NCBI RefSeq assembly: GCF_001984055.1 | Contig: NZ_LYVO01000033.1 | Coordinates: 1 to 64,000, forward strand | Direction: 5' to 3' | Length of the DNA: 64,000 nucleotides | From: Variovorax sp. KK3 | Lineage (GTDB): Bacteria; Pseudomonadota; Gammaproteobacteria; Burkholderiales; Burkholderiaceae_C | Shown here: one piece after another, positions 37,309-53,417 of the stretch | How positions within the stretch are numbered: position 1 is the stretch's first letter | Layout: each line of letters starts with the position of its first letter | Made by a program: the position numbers and the translations under genes | Notes under the pieces: generated by a model | What the model saw: the letters and a program-made list of their open reading frames with translations, nothing else | Database searches by the model: none | Told to the model about the DNA's origin: nothing

Positions 37309-37629
37309 TCAGGCTGCAAAAATCTCCTGCAGCGTCTCCAGCGTCGAGAGCATCGTCTTGGCTGACACTGTGCCAAGTTTTTTCGCCAGGCGAACTTTGT
37401 CGACCGTGCGTACCTGATCCAGGAGTATCAACCCCTTCGTCCCACTGTGCGTCAATGCAATTCGAAATGGTGCCGGGAATCCTTTGGAAGTCATCGGGGC
37501 CACGATGACCGTGCGCAGATGGTCGTTCAACTCCGAAGGCGACACCACCACGCACGGGCGGGATTTCTTGATTTCACTGCCGACTGTCGGGTCCAGGTTG
37601 ACGAGCCAGATTTCCCCGCGTCTTACCAA
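37309..37629 (-). CDS. mazF: MazF/PemK-family endoribonuclease toxin
   Basis: The 106-residue toxin starts MVRRGEIWLVNLDPTVGSE and has SRPCVVVSPSELN and VIVAPMTSKGFP. These are the characteristic CcdB/PemK-fold blocks of an mRNA interferase that cleaves single-stranded RNA at short motifs. Its start overlaps the mazE stop by seven bases. It is complete and shows no frame damage, so it is likely active. Confidence 0.94.
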   Translation of the reverse strand: MVRRGEIWLVNLDPTVGSEIKKSRPCVVVSPSELNDHLRTVIVAPMTSKGFPAPFRIALTHSGTKGLILLDQVRTVDKVRLAKKLGTVSAKTMLSTLETLQEIFAA

Positions 37630-37877
37630 GACAACTCCGCATCTGCCTCGTTGCCGAACTCACCCATGACCAGCTCGTCGTCTCCCTTGCGAGCCAGGGT
37701 CTCGGCGGCCTCGGCCCACCCAGAACGCGGCGGCCGAGTCGCTTTTCGCAGGACGATGGCGCCATCCTCTACCGTCAAATCGGCAACTTCTGCGTCGCCG
37801 AATCCTGCCTGCGCCAAGATGGGCTTGGGCAGAACAATGCCCTTGCTGTTACCGAACGGTCTGATACTGACTTCCAT
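37623..37877 (-). CDS. mazE: MazE/AbrB-family antitoxin
   Basis: The 84-residue antitoxin starts MEVSIRPFGNSKGIVLPK, an AbrB/SpoVT-type swapped-hairpin DNA-binding N-terminus. Its acidic, likely disordered C-terminus (DDELVMGEFGNEADAELSW) should wrap the toxin. A good AGGAG lies upstream. Immediately upstream is a compact promoter with an 11-bp palindrome over the -10, consistent with autoregulation by MazE-MazF. Confidence 0.93.
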   Translation of the reverse strand: MEVSIRPFGNSKGIVLPKPILAQAGFGDAEVADLTVEDGAIVLRKATRPPRSGWAEAAETLARKGDDELVMGEFGNEADAELSW

Positions 37878-37958: not shown

Positions 37959-39206
37959 TCAAAGCTCGAAGCTCTGCAAATGATCGACCCGCTCGGCCAG
38001 CCCCTCGGCCCCGAGGTAGTGACTGACCTTCCCCGTCCGCACATCCGCCAGCGCGCGTTCCAGATCGCCCAGCATGTCCTGCCGCGTCTTCTCGAAGGCC
38101 GTGGAGAGGTCGTGGTGGCGTTGCCGGTAGGCATCGGCGATCACGCGCGCGGCGGCGGGTGCGCCGCAGGCCACACACTCGGCGATGGCGGCCACGCTGG
38201 GCTCGGCGCCACGTTCGAGCAACTGCGTGGCCAGCACGGGGGAGATGGCGCTGTCGATGCCGTCCAGCGCGTCGGGCGACACCGGTGCGCCGGCTCCCAC
38301 CAGCGCTGCGGCGGCGTGGTGGGCGCCATGGGACAGGGCGAGGTCGGTGGCCACCGCACTGCCCTGCAGGGGGCCGTCGAGCGCGACGCCGGCGGCGGCC
38401 AGGCGCTGGATCAGCGCCGCATCGTCGGTCGCCACCGCATGGCGCAGCGCGATGCGCGAGAGCGCGCCGTCGCGGTCCAGCGTGCCCTCGGCCAGCGGGC
38501 TGCGCCAGTCGACCACCGCACGCCGGTAGAAAGCCACCAGCTTGTCCACCAGTTCGAGCGAGAGACCGTGGTCCTCGTGCCGCTCGTCCAGAAACTCGAG
38601 CAGCGACTGGCCGGTGAAGTAGTCGCCGGCCGGCTCGAGCGGGTCTTCGTCGAGGCGCAGCGCGGCGAAGGCTGCGGGGAGGTCGTGCGCGACGGTGGTC
38701 AGGCCGTCTTCGTGCATCGCATGGGCCCAGGCATCCGGCAGGCCCTGCTTCCAGGCCAGGACGTGGCCGTGGTCGGCGCCGGGCTCGACCACGGTGTAGA
38801 TGCGGTCGCTGTACTCGAAGCCGCCGAAGGGCAGGGCGGTCAGCAGGCCGTCCCAGGGTTCTCCGCGCGAGGCGGCCGCTTCGCGGGCGCTTTCCTGTTC
38901 GTGCGCGATCCAGCCCTGCAGGTCGTGGTAGCCATCGCTGCCGTTCCAGAACAGTTCGCCCCAGCTGACCGCCTCCTCGCTGCCGTTCATGCGCAGGTGC
39001 AGGTCGTAGTCGATGCGGCCGCCCGCAGTGCGTTGCCACAGCGCCGTCAGCTCCGGCGGAATCGGGCCCGCGCACAGGGCCTGCACGGCGGAGATCTGCT
39101 CGACCGTCATCGGCGGCTGGGCGTCGAAGATCACGCGGCCTGCGAAGAGCACGATGCCGTGCTCGCGCAAGGTGGCCAGTTCGTCATCGGCAAAGTGGTC
39201 GCTCAT
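37959..39206 (-). CDS. SUKH/SMI1-like protein with ankyrin-type C-terminal repeats
   Basis: The 415-residue protein starts MSDHFADDELATLREHG. Residues about 25-200 look like a SMI1/KNR4 (SUKH) domain: GPIPPELTALWQRTAGG is a typical SUKH opening, followed by YHDLQGWIAHEQES and PFGGFEYSDRIYTVV. Residues about 260-370 contain ankyrin-like helix pairs (ALRHAVATDDAALIQRLAAAG, core ATDDAALIQRLAAAG, and LALSHGAHHAAAALVGAG). SUKH and ankyrin proteins often act as immunity proteins of polymorphic toxin systems. No toxin gene with PAAR, Rhs or T6SS motifs is visible nearby. Assignment is by eye. Confidence 0.7.
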   Translation of the reverse strand: MSDHFADDELATLREHGIVLFAGRVIFDAQPPMTVEQISAVQALCAGPIPPELTALWQRTAGGRIDYDLHLRMNGSEEAVSWGELFWNGSDGYHDLQGWIAHEQESAREAAASRGEPWDGLLTALPFGGFEYSDRIYTVVEPGADHGHVLAWKQGLPDAWAHAMHEDGLTTVAHDLPAAFAALRLDEDPLEPAGDYFTGQSLLEFLDERHEDHGLSLELVDKLVAFYRRAVVDWRSPLAEGTLDRDGALSRIALRHAVATDDAALIQRLAAAGVALDGPLQGSAVATDLALSHGAHHAAAALVGAGAPVSPDALDGIDSAISPVLATQLLERGAEPSVAAIAECVACGAPAAARVIADAYRQRHHDLSTAFEKTRQDMLGDLERALADVRTGKVSHYLGAEGLAERVDHLQSFEL

Positions 39207-39307
39207 GTCGTCTCTCCTTGTCGTCGGCGTGCCCGGTGGCGCGGCGGCCGAAGGTCCGCGAGCCATGAGAGCCGGGCCGTGAAAGAGAGTATCAACTTCT
39301 GGGCGCT

Positions 39308-39350
39308 GCGCCACGCACCACCCCTCGGGGTGGATGCCCATGCGTGGCGC
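39308..39350 (-). terminator. Large nested stem-loop directly after the BisC-like gene
   Basis: A 10-bp outer stem GCGCCACGCA/TGCGTGGCGC (39308-39317 and 39341-39350) encloses an inner hairpin with arms CCACCCC/GGGGTGG (39318-39333). It begins one base after the stop codon of the molybdoenzyme gene. It most likely marks the 3' end of the operon; a U tract is lacking. Confidence 0.6.
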
Positions 39351-39351
39351 G

Positions 39352-41673
39352 TCAGCCGGCGTGTGCGGCGAACGCCGGTGGATCGAAGGCCGTGACCGCT
39401 GGCGGCAGATCGCATTTCTCGACCTGCACCAGCACCGTCTGCACCATGGTCGACTGCGCGAGCCTGGACGTGCCGCGGTCCAGCGTGACCACGTTGGGAT
39501 TGCCGTGCTTCTCGAGGCTGCCCGGCTCGCCGCCCTCGGCCGGGTCGTACCAGGCACCGGTGGCGATCTGGGCGACGCCGGGGCGCAAATGGTCCGAGAT
39601 CACCACGCCGGCCAGGAACGCGCCGCGGTCGTTGAAGACGCGTGCCACGTCGCCCGCTGCGAGGCCGCGCGATCGCGCCTCGTCGGGATGCAGCGTGAGC
39701 GCCTCGCGTCCGGCCACCTTGCACAGGCGGCTGGCCGGGGCGTGGTCGTGCTGGCTGTGGAGGCGTGGAGTCGGCTGGTTCGACATCAGGTGCAGCGGAA
39801 ATCGCGCGGCGTCGGCCGAACCCAGCCATTCGGCAGGCTCCAGCCATGACGGGTGCGGCGGGCAGTCCGCGTAACCGTAGCCTGCGATGGTGTTCGAGTA
39901 GATCTCGATGCGGCCCGACGGCGTGGCCAGCGCATGCGCGGCAGGGTCGTCGCGGAAGTCGCCCAGCAACGCCTTGGACCGGGCTGGCGGCGGAAATTCG
40001 TAGGAGCCCGCGTCCCAGAAATCCTGGAACGGCGGCGGCTCGAAGCCGAGCGCCTGCGCCCGTGCACGCGCACCTTCGTACATGTGCTTCAGCCACCCCA
40101 TCTCGTCCCGCCCCTCGGTGTAGGCGTGGCCGAAGCCCAGGCGCGCGGCCAGCTTCGCCATGATGTCGAAGTCGTTGCGTGCCTGGCCGACCGGCTCGAT
40201 CACCTGCTTCATCGCGATCCAGAAAGGCGTGTACTCCTGCGCGAGGATGTCGTTGCGCTCCATCGTGGTGGTGGCCGGCAGCACGATGTCGGCGTGCCTC
40301 GCAGGCGGGTTCCACCACGGCTCGTGGACGATGACCGTGTCCAGCCGCTGCCAGGCCTCGAGGAAGCGGTTGAGGTTGCCGTTGTGGTGAAACGGGTTGC
40401 CGCCGATCGAGTACAGAAGCTTCGTGTCGGGATAGGTGATGGTCTTGCCGTCGTACTCGATGCTTTCGCCGGGGTGCAGCAACATGTCGGCGACGCGCCC
40501 GACCGGCACGTAGGCCTTCACGGGATTGGGGCCGAGCGGCAGGGTCGGCCTCGGCAGGTCGTCATGGTGCGGCTGCGTGGTGCCGCTGATGGCACCGAAG
40601 CCCAGGCTGAAGCCGCGGCCCGGCAGGCCGATCTGGCCCAGCATCGCGGCGAGCGTGATGGTCATCCACACCGGCTGTTCGCCATGGTCCGCGCGCTGGA
40701 TCGACCAGCTCGTGGTGACGAGCGTGCGCGATGCGGCCATCGTGCGTGCGAGGCCCTCGATGACATCGGCAGGCACCTCGGTGATGCGGCTGGCCCATCG
40801 CGCATCTTTCGGTTGGCCGTCCTCGCGGCCCTTGAGGTAGGCCTGGAAGCGCTCGTAGCCTTCGCAGTGCGTCGCAAGGAATCCGCGGTCGCACAAGCCT
40901 TCGGTCTCCAGCGTGTGCGCCATGCCCAGCATGAGGGCGACGTCGGTGCCCGGCCGCAGCGCGATCCATTCCGCCTTCACCTCCGCGGGCAGGTCCTGGC
41001 GCGACGGGCCGATGTTGACGAAGCGGATGCCCGCCGCCGCGGCGCGCCGGAACCAGTCCGGGCTCTGGTGCGCCACCGCGCCGCCGGGGTCGATCTGGGT
41101 GTTCTTCAGCGACGCGCCACCGAACATCACGACCAGTTCGGCGGACGCCACCACCTCGGCCCAGGGCACCACCATCTCGGTGATGTCCGAGCGGCCCAGG
41201 ATGTAGGGCGTGATGTGCAGCGCTGCGCCGAAGCTGTGGTTGCCGCGCTTGTCGACGTAGCCGCCGTGCAGGCCCAGGAAGCGCTTCAGCACGCTGGGCG
41301 AATGGTGCAGACGTCCGGCACTGGCCCAGCCGTAGGAGCCGCCGTAGATCGCCTCGTTGCCGAACTGCGTCTTGACGCGCTGCAGCGCGCCGGCGACGAG
41401 GTCGATCGCTTCGTCCCAGCCCACCGGCACGAAGGGCTCGCCGCCGCGCTTCCTCGTCTTCTCGCCCTGCAGGTAGCCTGCGCGCACGTAAGGCTGCTCG
41501 ATGCGCAGCGGGCTTTGCACCGTGTCGGGCAGGCTGGCCATGTAGCTCGGCGGGTGCGGGTCGGCGCGGAAGGGCGTGGTGCGGACGATCTGGCCGCGCG
41601 GATCGACCTCCACGTTGTAGACGCCCCAGTGCGAGGCGGTCTGGACCGTGCGATGGCCGCGCGGCATGTTCAT
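39352..41673 (-). CDS. Molybdopterin oxidoreductase of the DMSO/biotin-sulfoxide reductase (BisC/TorA) family
   Basis: The 773-residue protein is a DMSO-reductase-family enzyme that binds bis-MGD molybdenum. Ser113 in YGGSYGWASAGRLHH matches the Mo-ligating serine of DMSO, TMAO and biotin sulfoxide reductases. HSFGAALHITPYILG and EPWWNPPARHADIVLPATT are also typical. There is no N-terminal CxxC Fe-S motif and no twin-arginine signal, so it resembles cytosolic BisC rather than periplasmic TorA. ATG at 41673 has AAGGA six bases upstream; ATG at 41679 overlaps the CoxG stop. It is the last gene of an operon with a xanthine-oxidase-type molybdoenzyme. Substrate unknown. Confidence 0.9.
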   Translation of the reverse strand: MNMPRGHRTVQTASHWGVYNVEVDPRGQIVRTTPFRADPHPPSYMASLPDTVQSPLRIEQPYVRAGYLQGEKTRKRGGEPFVPVGWDEAIDLVAGALQRVKTQFGNEAIYGGSYGWASAGRLHHSPSVLKRFLGLHGGYVDKRGNHSFGAALHITPYILGRSDITEMVVPWAEVVASAELVVMFGGASLKNTQIDPGGAVAHQSPDWFRRAAAAGIRFVNIGPSRQDLPAEVKAEWIALRPGTDVALMLGMAHTLETEGLCDRGFLATHCEGYERFQAYLKGREDGQPKDARWASRITEVPADVIEGLARTMAASRTLVTTSWSIQRADHGEQPVWMTITLAAMLGQIGLPGRGFSLGFGAISGTTQPHHDDLPRPTLPLGPNPVKAYVPVGRVADMLLHPGESIEYDGKTITYPDTKLLYSIGGNPFHHNGNLNRFLEAWQRLDTVIVHEPWWNPPARHADIVLPATTTMERNDILAQEYTPFWIAMKQVIEPVGQARNDFDIMAKLAARLGFGHAYTEGRDEMGWLKHMYEGARARAQALGFEPPPFQDFWDAGSYEFPPPARSKALLGDFRDDPAAHALATPSGRIEIYSNTIAGYGYADCPPHPSWLEPAEWLGSADAARFPLHLMSNQPTPRLHSQHDHAPASRLCKVAGREALTLHPDEARSRGLAAGDVARVFNDRGAFLAGVVISDHLRPGVAQIATGAWYDPAEGGEPGSLEKHGNPNVVTLDRGTSRLAQSTMVQTVLVQVEKCDLPPAVTAFDPPAFAAHAG

Positions 41674-41675
41674 CG

Positions 41676-42476
41676 TCATTCCTTCACGGTTGCCGGCCGC
41701 AGGCAGTCGCGCAACAGCGCGGCGCATTCGGCGGCCGCTTCCAAGGGCCAATGGACGGTGACGGCGGCGCCGTCACGCATCAGATCGATGCGGATGTGGC
41801 GTGGACTCGGCGGCGTATCGCGCTTCGAGAGCGCGCCCAGAAGGCGCGGCCACCAGCCGATGGGTGTCGGCCGGACAGCAACGGCCTCGTGCTCGACGAG
41901 TTGCTGCGCGACGCCCAGCACATGCGATGTCGATGCGGTGGGTGCAATGAGCTTGGTGGGCGCAGCAGGTTCGGCCACGGGCCGCGCCACGTCGGCATCG
42001 GACGACCCCGGCCCGCCCGGCCCATCCTGCTGTACCTCGATCCGCTTCGCCAGGTTCTGCCCGAACTCGTCCCACATGCGATCGGCCTTGGTCTTCATGA
42101 CGCTCAGGCCGAAGCTGCCCAGCCGGCCCAGCACGTCGACCTTGACCTTCATGCGCAGCGCGGTGCTGCCGTCGGGCTGCTCGTCCAGCACCATCTCGCT
42201 TTGCTGCTTGAGCGAACTCGCGACCGAGGCGTCTTCGCCCGTGCCTTCGCAGCGCAGGTAGTGCGGCGCGCGCTGCTCGAGGATGGTCGTCTTGAGCCTG
42301 AACTTCGCGCTGATGAAAGCGATCTTCACGGCCATCACGGCCTTGTACTCGGTGGGGCTCAGCACCTCGATCGACTGCATGCCGGGCACGCAGCCGCCCA
42401 TCACCTCGGGGTCGAGCAACAGGGCCCACACGCGCGCGGGCGGCGCGGCGATGGCCAGGGTCTTTTCAATTTCCAT
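41676..42476 (-). CDS. CoxG-like SRPBCC protein with C-terminal extension
   Basis: The 266-residue protein has a CoxG/SRPBCC domain at about residues 1-150. It starts MEIEKTLAIAAPPARVWALL, with LLDPEVMGGCVPGMQSIEVL (core PEVMGGCVPGMQ) and VDVLGRLGSFGLSVMKTKAD. CoxG proteins help assemble or membrane-attach CO-dehydrogenase-type molybdoenzymes. After a linker, the last 55 residues form a separate small unit (HIRIDLMRDGAAVTVHWPLE, core). The start overlaps the 2Fe-2S subunit by 11 bases. It supports the upstream molybdo-hydroxylase. Confidence 0.87.
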   Translation of the reverse strand: MEIEKTLAIAAPPARVWALLLDPEVMGGCVPGMQSIEVLSPTEYKAVMAVKIAFISAKFRLKTTILEQRAPHYLRCEGTGEDASVASSLKQQSEMVLDEQPDGSTALRMKVKVDVLGRLGSFGLSVMKTKADRMWDEFGQNLAKRIEVQQDGPGGPGSSDADVARPVAEPAAPTKLIAPTASTSHVLGVAQQLVEHEAVAVRPTPIGWWPRLLGALSKRDTPPSPRHIRIDLMRDGAAVTVHWPLEAAAECAALLRDCLRPATVKE

Positions 42477-42969
42477 GGGGCACCTTCTCTTGCACGTTCT
42501 TTTGCATCATTTCCGCGGCGTCCATCACGGACTCCACGATCTGGCTGTAGCCGGTGCAACGGCACAGGTTGCCGTTGAGGCCCTTGCGGACCTCGTGCTC
42601 CGTGGGGTGGGGGTTCTTCGCGAGCAAGGCGCACGAGGCCATGACGAAGCCCGGCGTGCAATACCCGCACTGCAGGCCGCCGCAGCGCATGAAGGCGTCC
42701 TGCACGGGGTGAAGCTCGTCGCCGCGGGCCAGGCCTTCGACGGTGGTGATGGCGCAGCCGTCGGCGTGCACCGCCAGCGACAGGCAGGACTTCACGACCT
42801 CGCCGTCGACCAGCACCGAGCAGGCGCCGCAGACGCCGGTCTCGCAGCCGCGCTTGGTGCCCGTGAGGTGCAGGTCGTCGCGCAGTAAGTCGGCGAGCAG
42901 GCGTCGCGCGGAAACCTGCGTCTCCTGCCGCTCTCCGTTGACGACCAATGCGATCGTGTGAAGGCTCAT
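42466..42969 (-). CDS. 2Fe-2S subunit of a xanthine-oxidase-family molybdoenzyme
   Basis: The 167-residue protein has both clusters of the family. The plant-type [2Fe-2S] uses Cys42, Cys47, Cys50 and Cys62 (GCETGVCGAC...SC). The helical C-terminal cluster uses Cys101 and Cys104 (CGGLQCGYCTPGF) plus Cys136 and Cys138 (NLCRCTGY). It transfers electrons from the Mo centre to the FAD subunit. The start overlaps the FAD-subunit stop by four bases (ATGA), so the three subunits are coupled. Confidence 0.96.
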   Translation of the reverse strand: MSLHTIALVVNGERQETQVSARRLLADLLRDDLHLTGTKRGCETGVCGACSVLVDGEVVKSCLSLAVHADGCAITTVEGLARGDELHPVQDAFMRCGGLQCGYCTPGFVMASCALLAKNPHPTEHEVRKGLNGNLCRCTGYSQIVESVMDAAEMMQKNVQEKVPHGN

Positions 42970-43838
42970 GTCTCTTCTCCAGTCAGGCCGAACAGGTCGG
43001 CGATGGTGCGGCGGCATGCGATGCGGACCATGTCGCGCCGGAAGTCGGCGGTGCCGCGGTTGTCCGAGATCGGGTCGATCTCGGCCGCGACGATGTCGGC
43101 GGCCTCCGCAGCCACCATCGGGTCGACGGTCCTGCCGCGCAGGAATTCCTCGGCACGGGCGAGGCGGCCCGGCACGGGTACCGAGGCGCCCACCACCAGC
43201 CGCGCCTCGCGGCACAGCGCGCCATCGCGCCGCACCACCAGCGACACGCTGGCGAGCGGCCGGTGCTCGGCAGCCGTGCGCAAGAAGCGCGTGTAGCGGC
43301 CGTCGGCGCCGGGCTGCGGCGGCGGCACGCGGATGGCGACCAGCAGTTCGTCGGGTTCGAGCGCGGTCACGTAGTAGTCGACGAGGAATTCCTCGATCGA
43401 CAGCGTGCGCTCGCCGCGCGCGCTGCCCAGCACCACCTGGGCGCCATGCGCCATCAGGCAGCCGGGCGGGTCGGTGGCCGGGTCGGCGTAGCAGAGGTTG
43501 CCGCCCAGCGTGCCCTGGTTGCGCACCTGCGGGTTGGCGACCTGCGCGGCCATGGCGGCAAGCGTCGGGTAGTGCTGCCGCACGACGTCGGCGCGCGCCA
43601 GCTCGGCGTGCCTGACCAGCGCGCCGATGCGCAGGCCCTGCTGCGGATCGAAATTGATGCCCCACATGCCATCGAGCCGCAGGGCCGACACCACGTGCGA
43701 GGGCGCCACCATGCGCTGCCGCATCGCCAGCAGCAAGGCCGTGCCGCCGGCCATTACGCGGCATTCGTCGCCCAGGTCGGCCAGCATGCGGCTGGCTTCC
43801 GCCACGGTACGCGGTTCGAGGAATTCGAAGTCATGCAT
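42966..43838 (-). CDS. FAD-binding medium subunit of the molybdoenzyme
   Basis: The 290-residue protein has the CoxM/XdhB FAD-binding fold. It starts MHDFEFLEPRTVAEASRML and has RVMAGGTALLLAMRQR (first FAD loop) and the second FAD loop NQGTLGGNLCYADPATD. It mediates electron exit from the enzyme. The start at 43838 overlaps the large-subunit stop by eight bases. Confidence 0.95.
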   Translation of the reverse strand: MHDFEFLEPRTVAEASRMLADLGDECRVMAGGTALLLAMRQRMVAPSHVVSALRLDGMWGINFDPQQGLRIGALVRHAELARADVVRQHYPTLAAMAAQVANPQVRNQGTLGGNLCYADPATDPPGCLMAHGAQVVLGSARGERTLSIEEFLVDYYVTALEPDELLVAIRVPPPQPGADGRYTRFLRTAAEHRPLASVSLVVRRDGALCREARLVVGASVPVPGRLARAEEFLRGRTVDPMVAAEAADIVAAEIDPISDNRGTADFRRDMVRIACRRTIADLFGLTGEET

Positions 43839-46122
43839 GGCGCGGCTCCTCGCGGCGGCGCAGCGCGGCCAGCACCTTCTCGGGCGTAATCGGCAGCTCG
43901 GTGATGCGCACGCCGACCGCGTCGAACACGGCGTTGGCGATGGCGCCCGGGCCGGGCAGGATGGCGGTTTCGCTCGCGCCCTTGGCGCCGTAGGGGCCGT
44001 TGGGGTCGTTCGATTCGACGATGCCGCTGCGCAGCATGGGCAGGGCGTCGGGCGAGGGCATCGTGTAGTCGGCGAAGTTGCCGTTGACGATGCGACCGTC
44101 TTCCACCTGCAGGCGCTCGTAGAGCGTCCAGCCGATGGCCTGGGCCGCCGCACCGTTGCTCTGGCCGTGCACAGCGAGCGGGTTGAGGGCCTTGCCGCAG
44201 TCGTCGGAGACGAAGCTGTCGACCAGCGTGACCTGGCCGGTCTCGGTGTCGACCTCGACCTCGACCGCCTGCGCCGCGAAGGAATAGGCCGGTGCGATGT
44301 TGCCCATGAGCGTGTTCTTGTCGAACATCTCGGTGCGCGCATCCCAGCTGCCGGTGACCTGGATGCCTTCGCCGCCGTGGCGCCAGAGGTGCGCGCGGGC
44401 CAGCTCGGCCAGCGTCAGGCTGCGTTCCGGCGCAGCGCGCAGGTGCACGCTGCCGCCCGCGCACTGCAACTCGGCAGCCGGTGCCTGCAGCATCGTGGCC
44501 GCCTGGTCCATCAGCTTGTCGCGCGCGGCCCGCGCCGCAACGATGGCCGCGTTGCCGGCCGCGATGGTGACGCGCGAGGCCAGCGAGCCGATGCAGAAGG
44601 GCGCGCTGTCGGTGTCGGGTGCGACGACGTGGACGTGCGCCAGCGGAATGTCGAGCTCGTGCGCCACCACCTGGGTCAGCATGGTCATCGCGCCCTGGCC
44701 CATGTCGGCCTCGCTGCAGTGCAGGACGACACGGCCGTCCTCGTTGACCTTCAGCATGACGGTGGAGCCGTCCCAGTCGCCGATGGTGCGGTTGCCGCTC
44801 ACGTGCATGGCCGCGGCCAGGCCCAGGCCGCGCCGCTTGGCGCCGTGGCCGGCGATGCGGCCGCGGCGGGTGTGCCAGCCGATGGCTTCGGTGCACTGCG
44901 CCAGGCACTCGGCCAGGCCCGTGCTGCCGATCTTCCAGCCATGCACCGAGGTCTCGCCGCGCTCCAGGGCATTGAGGCGATGCACGTCGAGCGGGTCGAG
45001 TCCCAGCTTGCGCGCCATGGTGTCGAGGTGGCTGTTCAGCGCGAACAGCATCTGCGTGCCGCCGAAGCCGCGAAAGGCGCCGTGCGGCGGCGTGTGCGTG
45101 TAGACCAGCGTGGCGTGCGAACGCACGTTGGGATTGCGGTGCATGTTGTCGCTGCGCATGGCGCTGACGTGCATCACCTCGGCCGAGAGCCCGCTGTAGG
45201 CGCCGCAGTCGGCGACGATGCGCACGTCCTTGGCGACGATGCGCCCGTCGCGGCTCATGCCCAGCTTGAGCGTGATGCGCTCGGGCACGCTGGTGCAGCA
45301 GGCCAGGAAGTCTTCGAGCCGGTTGTTGACAAGCCGCACCGGCTTGCCGGTGCGCAGCGCGAGCGCGCCGGCGATCAGGCTGTTGGCGTCTTCGATGATC
45401 TTGCCGCCGAAGCCGCCGCCGGTGGTCGACTGGATCACGCGGACGCGCGACACCGGCAGCTCCAGCACGGCGGCCAGGCGCGCGCGTGCCAGGAAGGCCG
45501 ATTGCGTGGAGGTCCACACCTGCAGGCGGCCGTCGGGGTCGACCATGGCCACAGAGGCCATCGGCTCCATGTAGCCCGGGTACTGCGAATGCGTGCTGTA
45601 CGTGGCCTCATGCACCAGGTGGGCTTGTGCGAAGGCCGTGTCGACGTCGCCACGCTCGAATCGAATCTCGTGCGACACGTTGTTCGCGCGGCCGGGATGC
45701 ACGGTCGGCGCCTCGGCATCGAGCGCTTCCTCGGGCGTGAAGAGGGCGGGCAGCTCTTCGTACTCGACCTCGATCAGGTCCAGCGCGTCGCGCGCGATGT
45801 CTTCGCTGGTCGCAGCGACGGCAGCCACTTCCTCGCCGGCGAAGCGCACCACGTCGCGGGCCAGCGTGAGCCGCTCCTTGTGGTGCACGCCCCAGGGCAC
45901 CTGCGGGCCGTCGGCGCCCGTCACGACCGCCTTGACGCCCGGCAGCGCCAGGGCCTGCGTGGTGTCGATGCGCACGATGCGCGCGTGCGGGTAGGGGCTG
46001 CGCAGCACCTTCCCGTGCAGCATGCCGGGCAGCTGGATGTCGCCCGCATACTGCGCGCGGCCCATCACCTTGGCGCGTGCGTTGACCTGGGGCACCGAGG
46101 TGCCCAGCGTGGATTCGCTCAT
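43831..46122 (-). CDS. Molybdopterin-binding large subunit (xanthine dehydrogenase / CoxL family)
   Basis: The 763-residue catalytic subunit binds molybdopterin cytosine dinucleotide. Family motifs are QSTTGGGFGGKIIEDAN, PPHGAFRGFGGTQ, GNRTIGDWDGS and the catalytic Glu718 in GAKGASETAILPGPG. The loop that in form-I CO dehydrogenase contains a Cys (AYRCSFR) here reads PHGAFRGFG, so it is not a CO dehydrogenase. It hydroxylates a heteroaromatic, aldehyde or acyl-CoA substrate that cannot be named from sequence. It starts ten bases after the Bug protein gene. MCD-maturation genes are not in the cluster. Confidence 0.94.
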   Translation of the reverse strand: MSESTLGTSVPQVNARAKVMGRAQYAGDIQLPGMLHGKVLRSPYPHARIVRIDTTQALALPGVKAVVTGADGPQVPWGVHHKERLTLARDVVRFAGEEVAAVAATSEDIARDALDLIEVEYEELPALFTPEEALDAEAPTVHPGRANNVSHEIRFERGDVDTAFAQAHLVHEATYSTHSQYPGYMEPMASVAMVDPDGRLQVWTSTQSAFLARARLAAVLELPVSRVRVIQSTTGGGFGGKIIEDANSLIAGALALRTGKPVRLVNNRLEDFLACCTSVPERITLKLGMSRDGRIVAKDVRIVADCGAYSGLSAEVMHVSAMRSDNMHRNPNVRSHATLVYTHTPPHGAFRGFGGTQMLFALNSHLDTMARKLGLDPLDVHRLNALERGETSVHGWKIGSTGLAECLAQCTEAIGWHTRRGRIAGHGAKRRGLGLAAAMHVSGNRTIGDWDGSTVMLKVNEDGRVVLHCSEADMGQGAMTMLTQVVAHELDIPLAHVHVVAPDTDSAPFCIGSLASRVTIAAGNAAIVAARAARDKLMDQAATMLQAPAAELQCAGGSVHLRAAPERSLTLAELARAHLWRHGGEGIQVTGSWDARTEMFDKNTLMGNIAPAYSFAAQAVEVEVDTETGQVTLVDSFVSDDCGKALNPLAVHGQSNGAAAQAIGWTLYERLQVEDGRIVNGNFADYTMPSPDALPMLRSGIVESNDPNGPYGAKGASETAILPGPGAIANAVFDAVGVRITELPITPEKVLAALRRREEPRHA

Positions 46123-46132
46123 GGGAGCCGCC

Positions 46133-47125
46133 TCAGTCGGCCGTGATGGCCAGGTCCTTGATCAGCTTGCCCATCGCCTGGTATTCGGTGGCGTTGGTCT
46201 TGGCCAGCACCTCGGGTGCGCCGCCGACCGGCAGGGCGCCGAAGGTCGCGAGCTTGGCCACCACCTCGGGCGACTTGACGATCTCGTTGAGGTGGCTGTT
46301 GAGCAGCCGCACCACGTCCGCCGGCGTGCCCTTGGGCGCGAAAAAGCCGTTCCACGCGCCGACCACCACGTCCTTGTAGCCCGCTTCCACCAGCGTGGGC
46401 ACGTTGGGCGCGAGCGGCGAGCGCTTGGCGTCGCCGATGGCCAGCGGCGTGAGCCGGGCCGTGCTGGTGTACTGGCTCACCACGCCGAGCGTGACCCACG
46501 CCGTGTCCACGTGGCCTGCCACCACGTCGTTGACCGAGGGCGCGACGCCGCGGTAGGGCACGTGCGTGATCTTCACGTTGGCGGCGCGGTTCAGCCATTC
46601 GCCGACGATGTGCATCGGCGAGCCCGCGCCGGGGCTCGCGTAGGTGAGCGACTTGCCCGACTTGGTCAGCGCGATCATCTCTGGCACCGACTTCACGCCG
46701 ACGCCGGGGTACGCGACCAGCACGAGGGGCTGCGTGGCGATCTGCACGATCGGCTCGAAGCCGTTGAGCACGTCGTAGCTGGCGGCCGGCGACAGGCGCA
46801 TCACCATGGGCGCGGTGGTGAACGGGTTCGGCGTGAACAGCAGCGTGTAGCCGTCGGGCGCCGCACGGCCGACGAAGCCGTTGCCGATCGTGCCGCCGGC
46901 GCCGGGCTTGTTGTCGACGATCACGGGCTGGTTCAGGCGCTGCGACAAGCGCTCGGCGAGCATGCGCGCGATCGAGTCGGTGTCGCTGCCGGGCGGGTAG
47001 GAGACGACGACGGAGATCGGCTTGGCCGGGTAGGCCGTCTGGGCTGCCGCCGGAAGGATGGCGGAGCAATAGCCGCAGGTGAGCGCGAGGGCACCGAGCG
47101 CAAGTTGACGACGAAGGGTGTTCAT
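46133..47125 (-). CDS. Bug-family (tripartite tricarboxylate transporter) solute-binding protein
   Basis: The 330-residue protein has a signal peptide (about residues 1-28, ending AAAQ). Bug-fold blocks follow: [54 protein letters not shown] and [20 protein letters not shown]. It binds a small, probably carboxylated, solute in the periplasm. No TctA/TctB permease is nearby, as is common for these orphans. GGGAG lies upstream. It is the first gene of the molybdoenzyme operon and likely binds its substrate or an inducer. Confidence 0.93.
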
Positions 47126-47173
47126 GTGGGTGGCTCCCGGGCTTGGCCCGCAGCAGGTGGTTGAAGAAGGCGT

Positions 47174-47191
47174 GCGAATTCTGGAATTCGC
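47174..47191. promoter_or_regulatory. 18-bp palindrome between IclR and the molybdoenzyme operon
   Basis: GCGAATTC-TG-GAATTCGC is a perfect palindrome with 8-bp arms, 49 bases before the Bug start and 32 before the IclR start. Such palindromes in divergent promoters are typical IclR operators. Confidence 0.75.
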
Positions 47192-47208
47192 GACCCCGCG
47201 CCGCCAGA

Positions 47209-47214
47209 CATAAT
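47209..47214 (+). promoter_or_regulatory. Candidate -10 element for a near-leaderless iclR-type mRNA
   Basis: CATAAT matches the -10 consensus at five of six positions and ends nine bases before the ATG at 47223. Transcription would start within about two bases of the ATG. No Shine-Dalgarno is visible. The expected -35 position falls inside the palindrome. Confidence 0.45.
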
Positions 47215-47222
47215 TTCACTCA

Positions 47223-48077
47223 ATGAACCAATCGAAGCGCGATGCATTCCGCGGCGCCGGCCCTGCGCCCGGCGTGAAGTCGATCACCGCCCTGCGGCGG
47301 GGGCTCGACGTGTTCTGGTCCATCCAGCAGTCGTCCGCGGCAACGCTGGCGGACCTGCACCGCCAGACCTCGCTGTCGAAGGCGACCTTGCTTCGCATCC
47401 TGAAGACGCTGCAGGAGGCCGGCTGGATCGCGCGCAACGAGGTCGAGAACCGCTACGTGCCGGCGGCGAGCCCCGGCGAGTCGGGGCTCGCGGTGGCATG
47501 GCGCACGCGCCTGTCGGCCCTGGCGACGCAGCCGCGGGAGCAGCTCCAGAAGGTCGTGCCCTGGCCCATCGACCTGGCGGTGCGCGACGGACTGGCGATG
47601 CTGATCCTCGACACCAACCGGCCGATCAACGGGCTCGCCGTCAACTACCGGGTGCTGGGCTTCCGCCCGCGGCTGCTGCTGTCGTCATTGGGCCGCTGCT
47701 ACCTGGCCTTCTGCCCCGATGACGAGCGCCGGCGGCTGCTCGACGCGCTGGCCCGCTCGCCTTACGAGGTCGACCGCGCGGCATTGAAATCGCACGGCGC
47801 CCGCGACTGGGCGAGCCGATATCGAGCGCAGGGCTATGCGTCGCGCGACCCGAGCCCGACCAGCATGGATTCGCCGGAGCGCTTCGGCGCGATCTCGGTG
47901 CCCATCGTTCTGGATGGCGCAGTGGTCGCCTGCATGAGCTGCGCGTGGCTGCCGGCCGTGGCCACCGAGCAGCAGATCGTGGAGCGCCATCTCGCGGACC
48001 TCAAGGTCGCAGCGCGTGCCGTGCAAGACCGGCTGTCGGCCGCGCGCTTTCCGGCCGCGGCGCCGGACGTGCAGTAG
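47223..48077 (+). CDS. IclR-family regulator of the molybdoenzyme operon
   Basis: The 284-residue protein has an IclR winged helix at about residues 18-75 (SITALRRGLDVFWSIQQSS, SLSKATLLRILKTLQEAGWI). The effector domain has DLAVRDGLAMLILDT, GRCYLAFCPDDERRR and FGAISVPIVLDGAVVACMS. It resembles MhpR-like regulators of aromatic catabolism in length and motif order. It is divergent from the Bug/molybdoenzyme operon across an 18-bp palindrome, and its 3' end overlaps the next gene by 77 bases. Confidence 0.93.
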   Translation: MNQSKRDAFRGAGPAPGVKSITALRRGLDVFWSIQQSSAATLADLHRQTSLSKATLLRILKTLQEAGWIARNEVENRYVPAASPGESGLAVAWRTRLSALATQPREQLQKVVPWPIDLAVRDGLAMLILDTNRPINGLAVNYRVLGFRPRLLLSSLGRCYLAFCPDDERRRLLDALARSPYEVDRAALKSHGARDWASRYRAQGYASRDPSPTSMDSPERFGAISVPIVLDGAVVACMSCAWLPAVATEQQIVERHLADLKVAARAVQDRLSAARFPAAAPDVQ

Positions 48078-48999
48078 CCGGCCCGGTCCCGAGCAGCAGT
48101 GCCTTCACCGCAGGGCGCTCGAACCAGGCCACCAGGTGGTCCAGCATCGCGCGGACCTGGGGCGCCATGTGTGCCCTCGTCGCATAGATGGCACACACGT
48201 CGAGGGCGGGCGGCTCGAAGTCCGGCAGCACCTGCACCAGTTGCCCGGCTTCGAGATGCTTGGCCACCGACAGGTAGGGTTGCATGGTGATGCCGCCATC
48301 GTCCAGAGCAGCCGCCAGCAGGAAGAGCGAATCGTCGGCGCACAGGTGGCTTCGGATCGGCACGTCGACGGCGGCCTCGTCCTGACGCGCGCGCAGCCTC
48401 CAGCTCGACAGGCCCAGCGGCGCATAGACGGCGCAGTCATGGTGCAGCAGATCCGCGGGCGCCCTCGGCATGCCCCGGCGCGCGAGGTAGTTCGGCGAGG
48501 CGCACAGCACCGACATGCACACCCCGAGTGGCCGGGCGACCAAACTGCCGTCGAGCCCCGAATGGATGCGAACGGCCAGATCGACGCGATCGTCCACCAG
48601 GTGCAGCGCGCGGTTGTCGACGGCAAGCGCCACACCCACGTCGGGATGATCCCGATGAAACGCGGACACGGCGGCCGCCAGCGTCGCCTGCCCCAGCGAA
48701 TGCGAACAGCTCATGCGGATCTGGCCTCGCAGCGGGTGGCTGTCGACGGGCCGCGACTGGGCCAGTTGGCGGGCGTGCGACAGCATGTCCCTGCATCGCC
48801 TCAACGCTTCCTCGCCACCCGGCGTGAGCGAGATGCTTCGTGTCGTCCTGTTCAACAGGCGCACGCCCACCCAGCATTCCATGTCGACGAGATGGCGCGA
48901 GACCATGGCGCGCGACATGCCCAGGGCGTCCGCGGCCGCGCTCAAGGACGAGCGCTCGGCGATCGCCACGAACACTTCGGAGGCGGTCAGGCGATCCAT
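48001..48999 (-). CDS. LysR-family regulator divergent from the SnoaL-like gene
   Basis: The 332-residue regulator has a typical N-terminus (MDRLTASEVFVAIAERSSLS, SMSRAMVSRHLVDME-like helix: LGMSRAMVSRHLVDMECWVG) and effector-domain blocks VDLAVRIHSGLDGSLVARPLG (core) and DDGGITMQPYLSVA. The last about 25 residues are Arg/Pro/Ala-rich and lie in the 77-base overlap with the convergent IclR gene. It is divergent from the SnoaL-like gene and probably controls it. Ligand unknown. Confidence 0.9.
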   Translation of the reverse strand: MDRLTASEVFVAIAERSSLSAAADALGMSRAMVSRHLVDMECWVGVRLLNRTTRSISLTPGGEEALRRCRDMLSHARQLAQSRPVDSHPLRGQIRMSCSHSLGQATLAAAVSAFHRDHPDVGVALAVDNRALHLVDDRVDLAVRIHSGLDGSLVARPLGVCMSVLCASPNYLARRGMPRAPADLLHHDCAVYAPLGLSSWRLRARQDEAAVDVPIRSHLCADDSLFLLAAALDDGGITMQPYLSVAKHLEAGQLVQVLPDFEPPALDVCAIYATRAHMAPQVRAMLDHLVAWFERPAVKALLLGTGPATARPAPRPESARPTAGLARHALRP

Positions 49000-49107
49000 T
49001 TGTCAACGATGCCGCGACACAGAATTGCACGCACGGGGCTCCTTCTTCGGCCGTGCTGCCTCTAGCATCGTCCGGCCGATCCTGGCGCTTTTCATTCCCG
49101 AACCTCC

Positions 49108-49575
49108 ATGCGTCACTCTTCAAAGATTTCCTGCTTGCTGGCCATTGGCGCCATCGCCGTCCAGATGTCGTTCGCTCCGGTCGCCTCTGCCGGCACGCCT
49201 GCCGAAGAGGCCAATCGCGCCGCGGTGCTCGATTTCTACGAAAAAGGCCTGAACCAGAAGAACGCGGATGCCGCGCTGGTTCACGTCGGCAACCGCTACG
49301 TTCAGCACAACCCCAATGCCGCGGACGGCCCCGAGGGCTTTCGCAAGTTCATCGCCTTCCTCGCCGAGAAGTTTCCGCAGTCGCGCAGCATCATCAAGCG
49401 CTCGTTCGTCGAGGGCGACTACGTGATCCTGCACGTCCACGCCCTGCGCGAACCCAACACGCGCGGCAACGCGATCATCGACATCTTCAAGCTCGAGAAC
49501 GGCAAGATCGTCGAGCATTGGGACGTCAACCAACCCGTGCCGGAGAAGGCCGCGAACGACAACGGCATGTTCTAG
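49108..49575 (+). CDS. Exported SnoaL-like protein
   Basis: The 155-residue protein has a signal peptide (about residues 1-28, ending ASAG). A SnoaL/NTF2-like fold follows with AVLDFYEKGLNQKNADAAL, VGNRYVQHNPNAADGPEGF and IDIFKLENGKIVEHWDVNQP. Family members are small alpha+beta-barrel hydrolases or aldol-condensing enzymes, but many are unassigned. The gene is divergent from a LysR regulator and its stop overlaps the convergent hydroxy-acid oxidase by four bases. Function unknown. Confidence 0.88.
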   Translation: MRHSSKISCLLAIGAIAVQMSFAPVASAGTPAEEANRAAVLDFYEKGLNQKNADAALVHVGNRYVQHNPNAADGPEGFRKFIAFLAEKFPQSRSIIKRSFVEGDYVILHVHALREPNTRGNAIIDIFKLENGKIVEHWDVNQPVPEKAANDNGMF

Positions 49576-50717
49576 GGTAGCCACTCGGCCGGCGCCAGGT
49601 GGTTCCGGCCGACGTCGCCCATGGCCGTCACGCCCAGCAGCGCCGCAGCGCGCTCGAGTTCCTGCCGCAGCATCGCCAGCACGGCGTCGACGCCTTGCTC
49701 TCCATCGGCGGCCAGCCCGTAGACCGGGGCGCGGCCCAGCAGCACCCCGTGGGCCCCGAGTGCCAGGGCCTTGAGCACGTCCGTGCCGCGCCTGAAGCCG
49801 CCATCGACGAGCACCGGCTTGCGGCCTTCGACCGCATCGATTACGCCGGGCAAGGCGCTGATCGACGAGGGCGCGCCGTCGAACTGGCGGCCGCCGTGGT
49901 TGGAGACGACGATCGCATCCACGCCCTGCGAAAGGGCGCGCTGGGCATCCTTGGGGTGAAGAATGCCCTTGAGCAGCAGCGGCCCGTCCCAGTGCTTTCG
50001 CACCCACTGCAGGCTGCTCCAGTCGAGCGTGCGGTCCATCTCGCGCGCCAGTAAGGCCGCCTGGGCCTGGGCATCGCCGGCCTTGCCTTCGGGCACGAGG
50101 TTGACGAACTGCGGTGAGCCCCCCCGGGCCAGCCGCGACAGCCAACCGGGCCGTCGCAGCACGTCGAGGGCGAGACTGGGCGTGACGCGAAAGGGCAGCC
50201 GGAAGGCGTTGCGTGCATCGCGCTCGCGCGCACCGCTGACCGGCACGTCGACCGTGAGCACCAGCGCGCCGAAGCGGGCCGCCTTGGCCCGCTTCAGCAG
50301 CCGCTCGGCGAACAAGCGGTCCGACAGCACGTAGAGCTGCAGCCATTGCAACGCCGGTGCGTCGGCCTCGTGCAAATCCTCGATCAGCGTGTTCGACGCC
50401 GTCGACAGGATGTGGGGAATGCGGGCGCGTGCCGCCGCCCGCGCCAGCATGGCGTCGCCGCGAGGGCGCACGAGGCCGCACAGGCCGATGGGAGCGACGG
50501 CGAAGGGTGCGCTCCAGCGTTCGCCGAAGAGTTCGACGGACAGGTCGATGTGCGCGTTGCCCGCCAGGCAATTGGGCATGAGGCGGACCTTCGCGAGATC
50601 CTGGATGTTCAGGCGCAGCGTCTGCTCGTCCTCCGCCCCGCCGCGAAGGTAGTCGAAGACGAACCTGGGGAGTGCGCAGTTCGCCTTCTTCTCGTAGTCG
50701 CTCGTGTTGATCAGCAT
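49572..50717 (-). CDS. FMN-dependent alpha-hydroxy-acid oxidase (probable (S)-mandelate dehydrogenase)
   Basis: The 381-residue TIM-barrel flavoprotein oxidises 2-hydroxy acids to 2-oxo acids. The catalytic residues are His274 and Arg277 in VVSNHGGRQFDGAPSS, with AVAPIGLCGLVRPRGD and LLKGILHPKDAQRAL typical of the lactate/mandelate group. Residues that separate lactate from mandelate dehydrogenase cannot be judged by eye. The benzoylformate decarboxylase two genes upstream on the same strand makes mandelate the most likely substrate. It starts 19 bases after the Bug gene. Confidence 0.9.
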   Translation of the reverse strand: MLINTSDYEKKANCALPRFVFDYLRGGAEDEQTLRLNIQDLAKVRLMPNCLAGNAHIDLSVELFGERWSAPFAVAPIGLCGLVRPRGDAMLARAAARARIPHILSTASNTLIEDLHEADAPALQWLQLYVLSDRLFAERLLKRAKAARFGALVLTVDVPVSGARERDARNAFRLPFRVTPSLALDVLRRPGWLSRLARGGSPQFVNLVPEGKAGDAQAQAALLAREMDRTLDWSSLQWVRKHWDGPLLLKGILHPKDAQRALSQGVDAIVVSNHGGRQFDGAPSSISALPGVIDAVEGRKPVLVDGGFRRGTDVLKALALGAHGVLLGRAPVYGLAADGEQGVDAVLAMLRQELERAAALLGVTAMGDVGRNHLAPAEWLP

Positions 50718-50736
50718 CGGGTCAGCATATCGGGCA

Positions 50737-51702
50737 TCAGTCGAGCTTGATGCCGACGTCCTGGATCACCTGGCGCCACTTCTCGCGCTCGCTCATCCAG
50801 AAGTCGAGCATCTGCGCCGGCGTGCCGGGCAGCGGCTCGAGCGCCAGCGCATCGAACCTCGACAGCACGGCCGGCGCCTTGAGCGCCGTCTGCAGAGCCT
50901 GGGCCCATTGCTGCACGGTTGCGGCGGACGTGCCCTTGGGCGCGACCAGGCCCTGCCACGCATAGGCTTCGTAGCCGGTGACGCCTTGCTCCGCGAGCGT
51001 CGGCACCTGGGGGTAGTTCTTCAGCCGCTCGCGGTTGGCCACTGCGATCACCTTGACCTTGCCGGCCGCGATGTGCTGCACCACGCTGCCGCTGTCGATC
51101 AGCATGAAGGGCACCTGGCCGCCGATGACGTCGATGATGGCGGCGGCGCCGCCCTTGTACGGCACGTGCGTCACCTTGAGGCCGCTGCGCTGCGCCAGCA
51201 ACTCGGTGGCCAGGTGGTGCGGCGTGCCCAGGCCCGGCGTGGCATAGCTGACCGGGTTGCCCTGCGCCTTGGCCCACGCCTGGAACTCGCGGAAGTTGTT
51301 CACCGGCACGTTGTTGTTGACGACCAGGAACAGCGGAAAGCGCGCCAGCAGCCCGACCGGCACGAAGTCGCGCTCGGCGTTGTAGTTGAGCTTGGCGAAG
51401 AGCGAGGGGTTGGCCGCCAGCGTCGCGAAGTCCGCGGTGAACATCACGTTGTTGATGTCGCGCGTGTGGGCCACGTACTCGGCCGCGATGTTGGTGCCCG
51501 CGCCGGGCTTGTTGTTGACGATGATCGTGCGGTTCAGTGTCTTGCCCATCGCTTCGGCCACGGTGCGGGCCACGGCGTCGGAGCCGCCCCCCGCGACGAA
51601 GCCAACGACCCACTCGATGGGCTTGTCCTGCTGGGCGTTGGCCACTGCGAAGGCGGGCAGCAGCGCCATCGCGAGGGATGCTTGTAGAAGTCTTCTTCTC
51701 AT
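50737..51702 (-). CDS. Bug-family solute-binding protein of the mandelate-like operon
   Basis: The 321-residue protein starts at 51702 (MRRRLLQASLAMALLPAFAV) after an AGGAG. It has a signal ending near residue 24 (ANAQ) and Bug blocks IEWVVGFVAGGGSDAVAR, NNKPGAGTNIAAEYVA, KVTHVPYKGGAAAIIDVI and AYAWQGLVAPKGTSA. The first in-frame start adds 20 residues without a signal pattern. Lying between the decarboxylase and the hydroxy-acid oxidase, it likely captures an aromatic hydroxy acid in the periplasm. No permease is present. Confidence 0.92.
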   Translation of the reverse strand: MRRRLLQASLAMALLPAFAVANAQQDKPIEWVVGFVAGGGSDAVARTVAEAMGKTLNRTIIVNNKPGAGTNIAAEYVAHTRDINNVMFTADFATLAANPSLFAKLNYNAERDFVPVGLLARFPLFLVVNNNVPVNNFREFQAWAKAQGNPVSYATPGLGTPHHLATELLAQRSGLKVTHVPYKGGAAAIIDVIGGQVPFMLIDSGSVVQHIAAGKVKVIAVANRERLKNYPQVPTLAEQGVTGYEAYAWQGLVAPKGTSAATVQQWAQALQTALKAPAVLSRFDALALEPLPGTPAQMLDFWMSEREKWRQVIQDVGIKLD

Positions 51703-51758
51703 CGTCGTCTCCTGGTGTTGAATGGATTCGGATATGTCGGTGCGCCTGGGCTTGCGCT

Positions 51759-53330: not shown

Positions 53331-53417
53331 GAAGTGCCTCCGTTGTTGGAGCGGAGTATTCCGGGCGCGGCCTGCCTTGAATATTGCTTTATCGCGAGAA
53401 AGTCATAACCTCCGGGC

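Follow-up and report, generated by a model that had tools for sequence, protein, structure and literature searches.

We analyzed a 64,000-nucleotide stretch of the Variovorax sp. KK3 genome (contig NZ_LYVO01000033.1, positions 1 to 64,000; below, the window), which carries a unit of six minus-strand genes that encodes, among other proteins, two molybdoenzymes of different families. The first gene (46133..47125) codes for a Bug/TctC-type binding protein of 330 amino acids (aa), which matched Pfam TctC with 214 bits versus a cut-off of 27 and whose N-terminus appeared signal-like by eye; no TctA or TctB genes are present among the six genes of the unit. Next come the genes of a three-subunit enzyme (below, the trio): a xanthine-oxidase-family Mo-binding large subunit of 763 aa (43831..46122; Pfam Ald_Xan_dh_C, MoCoBD_1, and MoCoBD_2), a FAD-binding medium subunit of 290 aa (42966..43838; FAD_binding_5 and CO_deh_flav_C), and a 2Fe-2S subunit (42466..42969; Fer2 and Fer2_2). 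They are followed by genes for a 266-aa CoxG-like protein (41676..42476; COXG, 73 bits versus a cut-off of 22.2) and for a 775-aa homologue of BisC/DorA/TorA-type molybdoenzymes (39352..41679; Molybdopterin, Molydop_binding, and Molybdopterin_N). A divergent plus-strand gene (47223..48077) codes for an IclR-family regulator (HTH_IclR and IclR_C, both above cut-off). At least one Pfam domain scored above its curated cut-off in every gene of the unit and in the IclR gene.

The arrangement is operon-like. The Bug and large-subunit genes are separated by a 10-bp gap, and all the other joints are overlaps, of 8 bp (large/FAD), 4 bp (FAD/2Fe-2S), 11 bp (2Fe-2S/CoxG), and 4 bp (CoxG/BisC). An earlier reading of this DNA, made by a model from the sequence alone, had described a six-gene minus-strand unit with short joints, coding for a Bug protein, a three-subunit xanthine-oxidase-family enzyme, a CoxG-like protein, and an enzyme of the dimethyl sulfoxide (DMSO) reductase family. 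The extent of the unit (39352-47125) and its joints (4-11 bp overlaps and a single gap) confirmed the first part of this description, and the Pfam and NCBIfam matches confirmed the second. Simple scans of positions 38900-47400 found 0 promoter-like sites (shuffle mean, 0.3) and 2 terminator-like sites (shuffle mean, 2.6). These counts neither support nor contradict a single transcript.

Identity of the encoded proteins

The trio combines the Mo-binding, FAD, and two-[2Fe-2S] modules of the xanthine oxidase family with an active-site Glu. The latter is E718, the Glu of the GAKGASE sequence of the large subunit; we take the Glu of the GAKG.SE region to be a conserved active-site residue of the family. 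The 2Fe-2S subunit contains C-x4-C-x2-C and C-x2-C...C-x-C motifs. The closest solved or curated relative of the large subunit is the alpha subunit of 4-hydroxybenzoyl-CoA reductase (HBCR; PDB 1rm6, 468 bits), an enzyme with the same three-subunit plan, to the corresponding region of which the E718 segment aligned. However, the scores with the NCBIfam HBCR models were all below the cut-offs (659 versus 994.55 bits for alpha, 115 versus 404.55 for beta, and 172 versus 257.8 for gamma), and the enzyme studied here has a CoxG-like partner. HBCR beta carries a 4Fe-4S insert; the FAD subunit encoded in the window matched the beta model only in two separate segments, of which the better covered residues 2-117, and contains five scattered Cys. 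Aerobic CO dehydrogenase shares with the trio its subunit plan and a CoxG-type partner, but the scores with CO dehydrogenase large-subunit models were far below the curated cut-offs (376 and 336 bits versus 950 and 991). The active-site loop of CO dehydrogenase is diagnostic for that enzyme. In our alignment, PHGAFRGFG, starting at residue 346 of the large subunit, stands opposite the loop of CoxL (8uem), in agreement with the sequence-only reading. The cofactor of the trio would be molybdopterin cytosine dinucleotide; the only pointer to it is indirect and consists of a gene with an NTP_transf_3 domain and a sub-threshold match to MocA, located near the unit in locus L151, homologues of which lie near the unit in L152, L153, and L154.

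The CoxG-like protein matched a CoxG-family chain (8uds_D) weakly, with an E-value of 0.00095, and contains a conserved C-terminal block, in which W243, P244, and C251 are invariant in all 15 aligned relatives. CoxG is described as the quinone-binding link of CO dehydrogenase (PMC13240472, citing Kropp 2025). By likeness to what the cited accounts give for that enzyme (PMC13240472, PMC4240915), we infer that electrons would leave the trio via the CoxG-like protein to quinone.

The product of the last gene scored 924 bits with the NCBIfam model bisC_fam, below the cut-off of 1017.55, and is therefore called here a BisC homologue rather than BisC (for brevity, its gene and the related genes are referred to as BisC below). 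In the PDB, it matched DMSO reductase (1eu1, 678 bits) and trimethylamine N-oxide (TMAO) reductase (619 bits), and, more weakly, pyrogallol hydroxytransferase (142 bits). Alignment to 1eu1 placed S149, Y116, and W118 at the positions of Ser147, Tyr114, and Trp116 of DMSO reductase, which bears out the earlier claim of a Ser at the ligand place of the second enzyme. Ser147 of DMSO reductase is the Mo ligand, and Tyr114 and Trp116 are further residues with roles in that enzyme. There is no Cys in residues 1-80, and no Tat-type signal was seen by eye; the protein is apparently cytoplasmic, as BisC is. Thus, it resembles the S- and N-oxide reductases of the BisC/DorA/TorA group in family and in these residues, and differs from them in its sub-threshold bisC_fam score and in the linkage of its gene to a catabolic trio. 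Five other matches of the DMSO reductase type in the same genome are all distant (best, 7.5e-25), so the BisC homologue may be the sole enzyme of its kind in the cell. The gene is under purifying selection: in the window and four relatives (five genomes), the mean ratio of nonsynonymous to synonymous polymorphism (pN/pS) was 0.18, versus 0.17 for the large subunit. Pyrimidine N-oxide and nicotinamide N-oxide are both reported to be reduced by E. coli DmsABC, a more distant relative (PMC12096835), so that heteroaromatic N-oxides can realistically be considered as substrates.

Distribution and history of the unit

At E ≤1e-190, the large subunit was detected in 8 of 399 genomes of the family and in 27 of 101 genomes of the genus. 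Among 399 genomes of the order, six, the window's own included, contained it at 66% identity or more, and a looser threshold of 1e-170 added nine matches at 42-45%; the family, genus, and order samples overlap. The comparison set consisted of 42 distinct loci with large subunits at least 60% identical; G863, in which only part of the large subunit is present, next to the end of a contig, was kept outside it. The Bug, large-subunit, FAD, 2Fe-2S, and CoxG genes are present whole and in this order in 35 of the 42 loci. The remaining seven are three loci cut by contig ends (L039, L174, and L176), one with no CoxG match (L220), two with no Bug gene beside the trio (L153 and L111), and one in which the Bug gene lies apart (L175). 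In ISL-79, the contig that bears the operon also holds a fragment of another, distant trio (33-44%; L229, positions 3-1697), which lies at least ca. 20 kb upstream.

BisC was found in 12 of the 42 loci (absence here and below refers to the fetched stretch). In 11 of these, all from Variovorax, it lies directly 3' of coxG; in a Burkholderiaceae metagenome-assembled genome (MAG), L039, transporter genes stand between coxG and BisC, which is ca. 5 kb further downstream. Hence, of the six-gene order that the sequence-only reading had suggested looking for in relatives, the first five genes are widely kept and the sixth is not: the conserved unit is a recurring five-gene hydroxylase operon, and the six-gene system is not fixed. 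Within the genus, the pairing is kept wherever operon-type BisC was found. Operon-type BisC (at least 65% identity) is present in 11 of 101 genomes, in each of them directly 3' of coxG and on the same strand, and no operon-type BisC was found outside this slot in the 101 genomes. Co-occurrence of BisC and the large subunit in this sample had a hypergeometric probability of 8e-8, calculated with relatedness ignored. In 10 of the 11 genomes, coxG and BisC either overlap by 4 bp or are separated by no more than 23 bp; the gap is larger in dw_308. An apparent frameshift splitting the WDL1 BisC gene was rejected as such, being an N-run of the assembly.

The history of BisC was followed in trees, from all of which duplicate loci had been dropped. 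For a clade test, 30 of 131 extracted BisC rows were used, with groups named after a first FastTree run. In the 30-row tree, operonic BisCs formed two clades, each with full support. The group that includes the window's BisC is sister (98/98) to BisCs of Pigmentiphaga-like genomes and of Burkholderia sp. IMCC1007, which have no linked trio; the second operonic group is sister (100/99) to BisCs of Burkholderia BCC0506, B. cenocepacia, and Pseudomonas poae. A single clade of operonic BisCs was rejected by the approximately unbiased (AU) test, with a p-value of 2.95e-6 for groups defined post hoc. BisC thus either entered the slot twice or spread outward from it, and the join of a hydroxylase and an oxide reductase would seem to have been made more than once among the relatives. 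Characterized BisC, TorZ, or DorA proteins were not part of these trees.

The Pigmentiphaga-like genomes provide a second link between BisC and the trio. In three of their BisC loci (L034, L035, and L041), a Bug gene is located directly upstream of BisC, with no linked trio. In a 98-row tree, the three Bug proteins grouped with 32 Bugs of trio operons and with none of the other 63, at an SH-like approximate likelihood ratio (SH-aLRT) support of 90, under the usual mark of 95, by a quick method that gave long-branch warnings. All four examined Pigmentiphaga-like genomes that have the sister BisC contain a large subunit of 75-77% identity on another contig, accompanied by Bug, FAD, 2Fe-2S, and CoxG genes and by no BisC; the four are closely related and do not represent four independent cases. 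GlcD-type and decarboxylase-like neighbours of BisC in the Pigmentiphaga-like loci were recognized by eye only and were not used. Burkholderia BCC0506, P. poae, and one B. cenocepacia record gave no large-subunit match at 1e-100.

Elsewhere, Burkholderia BisC genes at L038 and L112 lie among meta-cleavage-type genes (a DmpG-type aldolase and a FAA_hydrolase fold); L038 also has an N-acetyltransferase and a cytosine/purine-type permease (Pfam) near BisC, with homologues in L112. A different trio (33-35% identity in the large subunit) is encoded on the opposite strand near BisCs of 54-55% identity in four Binatia MAGs and one MAG titled Deltaproteobacteria (L048, L049, L052, L059, and L064). Such distant loci, with a large subunit of 29-36% identity less than 10 kb from BisC, were not used as linkage evidence; the genomes of these five loci hold 36-42 MoCoBD_1 matches each in 4.2-4.9 Mb, so that proximity to BisC carries little weight there.

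Regulator and neighbouring genes

The starts of the divergent IclR and Bug genes are 97 bp apart. Orthologues of the IclR gene (85-86%) occupy the same position at L031, L032, L033, L156, L157, and L209. Of the 42 related loci, 29 contain a MarR-like gene; the seven with an IclR orthologue are all closely related to the window. The proposal of IclR control therefore holds as to the presence of the divergent gene, but is specific to the clade of the window's nearest relatives, a MarR-like gene being the commoner companion. A candidate operator, the palindrome TTCATTGAGTGAA (47215..47227, no strand), overlaps the IclR start codon. The sequence TTCA(T/C)TG(A/G)GTGAA is present in all seven aligned IclR-Bug intergenic regions, a conservation that may be partly coding-derived.

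Between the IclR gene and a tryptophan dioxygenase gene (window positions 48001-54329), there are genes for LysR, SnoaL-like, FMN-dependent dehydrogenase, and benzoylformate decarboxylase-like proteins, as well as a Bug and a second LysR gene, both recognized by eye. This block looks like an insertion, since the tryptophan dioxygenase gene directly adjoins the IclR gene in G008, G005, and WDL1. A link of the unit to a mandelate pathway (FMN-dependent dehydrogenase, Bug, and benzoylformate decarboxylase-like genes, 49.6-53.3 kb) was considered and rejected; G008, G005, and WDL1 lack these genes beside IclR. On the other side of the unit, after BisC, a minus-strand gene (37959-39209) encodes a protein that has no match in Pfam and is ca. 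416 aa long, the exact start being uncertain; homologues of 81-82% identity occupy the same place in WDL1, G008, and G005. This gene is followed by a PemK/MazF-type toxin gene (37309-37877, minus strand; Pfam, 112 bits), overlapped by a small gene that is weakly MazE-like, below cut-off.

Catabolic neighbours of the trio were searched for at 50% identity or more with a set of ten genes from L217, L229, and L232, which are themselves stretches linked to the xanthine-oxidase-family genes. Pfam or NCBIfam matches back a Rieske oxygenase (Rieske, VanA_C), a reductase (Fer2, NAD_binding_1), a VOC protein (Glyoxalase), an aspartate dehydrogenase, RidA (Ribonuc_L-PSP), a FAD monooxygenase, a class II aldolase, and an MFS transporter; a thiamine pyrophosphate (TPP) enzyme matched PRK07064 above cut-off in L111 and L176, and an aldehyde dehydrogenase was assigned by eye. 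At least one of the ten genes is near the trio in 15 of the 42 loci, and at least two in 14. All 15 loci hold a Rieske, TPP, or VOC-type gene, and they span at least four groups (f1, f3, f32, and Caballeronia); in the annotation of the Caballeronia NK8 plasmid, Rieske, TPP, VOC, trio, and SRPBCC genes form one run. Each of the 15 Variovorax genomes queried contains TPP and Rieske homologues. A conserved Variovorax cluster with TPP, aspartate dehydrogenase, aldehyde dehydrogenase, VOC, cupin, and SDR genes, and in part Rieske and RidA genes, was seen at L232, L233, L229, L230, and L231; literature searches gave no pathway match for the TPP, aspartate dehydrogenase, and aldehyde dehydrogenase cluster.

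Lumichrome catabolism provides an analogy, in which xanthine-oxidase, TPP, Rieske, and extradiol steps act on an N-heteroaromatic (PMC12746152). As described there, the lum cluster of Nocardioides joins a xanthine-oxidase-type hydroxylase with TPP, Rieske, and extradiol enzymes, but it employs a single-chain LumJ, a two-subunit LumK/LumL, and a P450, whereas the enzyme studied here has three subunits with CoxG and, in some lineages, BisC. The accessory set also differs and, in the window, is unlinked. The Rieske, TPP, and VOC neighbours in 15 of 42 loci, together with the lumichrome analogy, suggest that the trio most likely hydroxylates a heteroaromatic ring. A role in a ring-compound pathway is supported by neighbours in those loci and not in the window itself.

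Possible role of the unit

The explanation that we favour, tentatively and at slightly less than an even chance, is that of a substrate-inducible catabolic operon, in which a hydroxylase core is joined by a BisC homologue that reduces an N- or S-oxide, either of the compound that the core hydroxylates or of an intermediate. The presence of two BisC clades in one slot, together with the unlinked coexistence of BisC and the trio in Pigmentiphaga-like genomes, favours a shared substrate, and the two-step oxidation/reduction route on one compound put forward in the sequence-only reading is plausible. An IclR- or MarR-type regulator would respond to the compound, and the Bug protein would capture an aromatic acid, most likely N-heteroaromatic, in the periplasm. 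The trio would hydroxylate the ring with oxygen from water, and electrons would flow from Mo via the two [2Fe-2S] clusters and then FAD to a quinone that CoxG presents. In BisC-bearing Variovorax, a cytoplasmic enzyme with a putative bis-molybdopterin guanine dinucleotide cofactor would have been added at the 3' end of the operon; by reducing the N-oxide (or S-oxide) of the same compound or intermediate, it would feed hydroxylation. Further breakdown in related genomes appears to be carried out by the neighbouring cluster with its Rieske oxygenase, TPP enzyme, VOC protein, aldehyde dehydrogenase, and aspartate dehydrogenase. A stronger version, in which Variovorax put the pair together two or more times, drawing on different BisC donors, for growth on an N-oxide class, we consider unlikely.

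A number of observations weigh against the catabolic pairing of the two enzymes. In a 38-row large-subunit tree, from which the four Pigmentiphaga-like loci had been left out, one BisC-bearing clade that includes L209 was not rejected (p-AU 0.131), so that two gains are not required; outward transfer of BisC from the slot would fit the BisC tree too. Burkholderia sp. IMCC1007, with a sister-clade BisC, gave no large-subunit match at 1e-100. In the window's genome, the TPP and Rieske homologues are on contig C82 (G000:C82), not linked to the operon, and some genomes that lack the trio contain the TPP homologue too, so its presence alone is not discriminating. The dw_308 BisC gene has a frame break (possibly a sequencing error). 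Four of the 42 loci end too early to be judged for BisC (L153, L155, L174, and L176), and 26 of the other 38 lack it. L209 (genome G003), which the large-subunit tree places inside the first BisC-bearing clade, has the unit without a close BisC, the best match being a 45% one on another contig; most simply, BisC would have been lost there. In other genera, 11 of 12 loci with BisC of 59-71% identity have no close trio in the fetched flanks. The sequence-only reading had named usual separation of BisC from the trio in relatives as evidence against its proposal; the 26 loci, the other genera, and G003 come close to this situation.

The strongest alternative, which we nevertheless regard as rather doubtful, treats BisC as a passenger with a general role, such as repair of free methionine or biotin sulfoxide or removal of oxidative by-products, that shares the promoter of the trio. 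BisC of E. coli and Salmonella is reported to reduce biotin and methionine sulfoxides (PMC7759655). The lack of a close BisC in G003, the mixed neighbourhoods of related BisCs, and the remoteness of the other DMSO reductase-type matches in the window's genome, which leaves BisC as possibly the sole enzyme of its kind, are all consistent with such a role. However, a general repair enzyme would not be expected to come from two lineages into one slot, to be confined to that slot in 101 genus genomes, or to coexist with the trio in all four Pigmentiphaga-like genomes.

It is improbable that the trio works in the reductive direction and dehydroxylates phenols or rings, like HBCR or the urolithin C dehydroxylase Ucdh, with BisC as a second dehydroxylase or reductase of the pathway. 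The top large-subunit match in both PDB and NCBIfam is indeed HBCR alpha, and one gut polyphenol pathway is described as using both molybdoenzyme families as dehydroxylases (PMC12771579). In the cited description, however, the two enzymes, Eadh and Ucdh, are reductive and belong to different gut species rather than to one operon. The distance of all three subunits from the HBCR cut-offs, the two-piece match of the FAD subunit to beta, and its scattered Cys argue against this alternative, and the CoxG partner and the oxygenase genes near the relatives' units point to oxidative use. Two successive hydroxylations, with BisC acting as a hydroxylase or transhydroxylase like the Ser-ligated resorcinol hydroxylase and pyrogallol transhydroxylase, are highly improbable: Ser-coordinating family members are said to include such hydroxylases (PMC10100899), and pyrogallol hydroxytransferase is among the PDB matches, but at a fraction of the DMSO and TMAO reductase scores, and the Tyr and Trp of DMSO reductase are kept. 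That the trio and CoxG form an aerobic CO dehydrogenase for energy scavenging, as subunit composition and the CoxG-like partner might suggest, was rejected on the loop and the model scores, and its probability is negligible.

To our knowledge, little has been established at the gene level about the routes by which bacteria process heteroaromatic N-oxides and S-oxides. A literature search of titles and abstract openings revealed no such operon among the matches listed, a negative of little weight, since most subscription papers were outside its scope; the searches also gave no substrate match for the operon and no description of breakdown of such an N-oxide class by a hydroxylase plus oxide-reductase route. 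The components are of known kinds, a hydroxylase operon and an oxide-reductase homologue, newly combined, and the interest lies in the apparent repetition of the combination. The CoxG-type partner is a candidate for quinone coupling outside CO dehydrogenase, and the operon places a BisC-like clade in a catabolic setting. A hydroxylase plus oxide-reductase unit that was seemingly assembled repeatedly points to a concrete substrate class.

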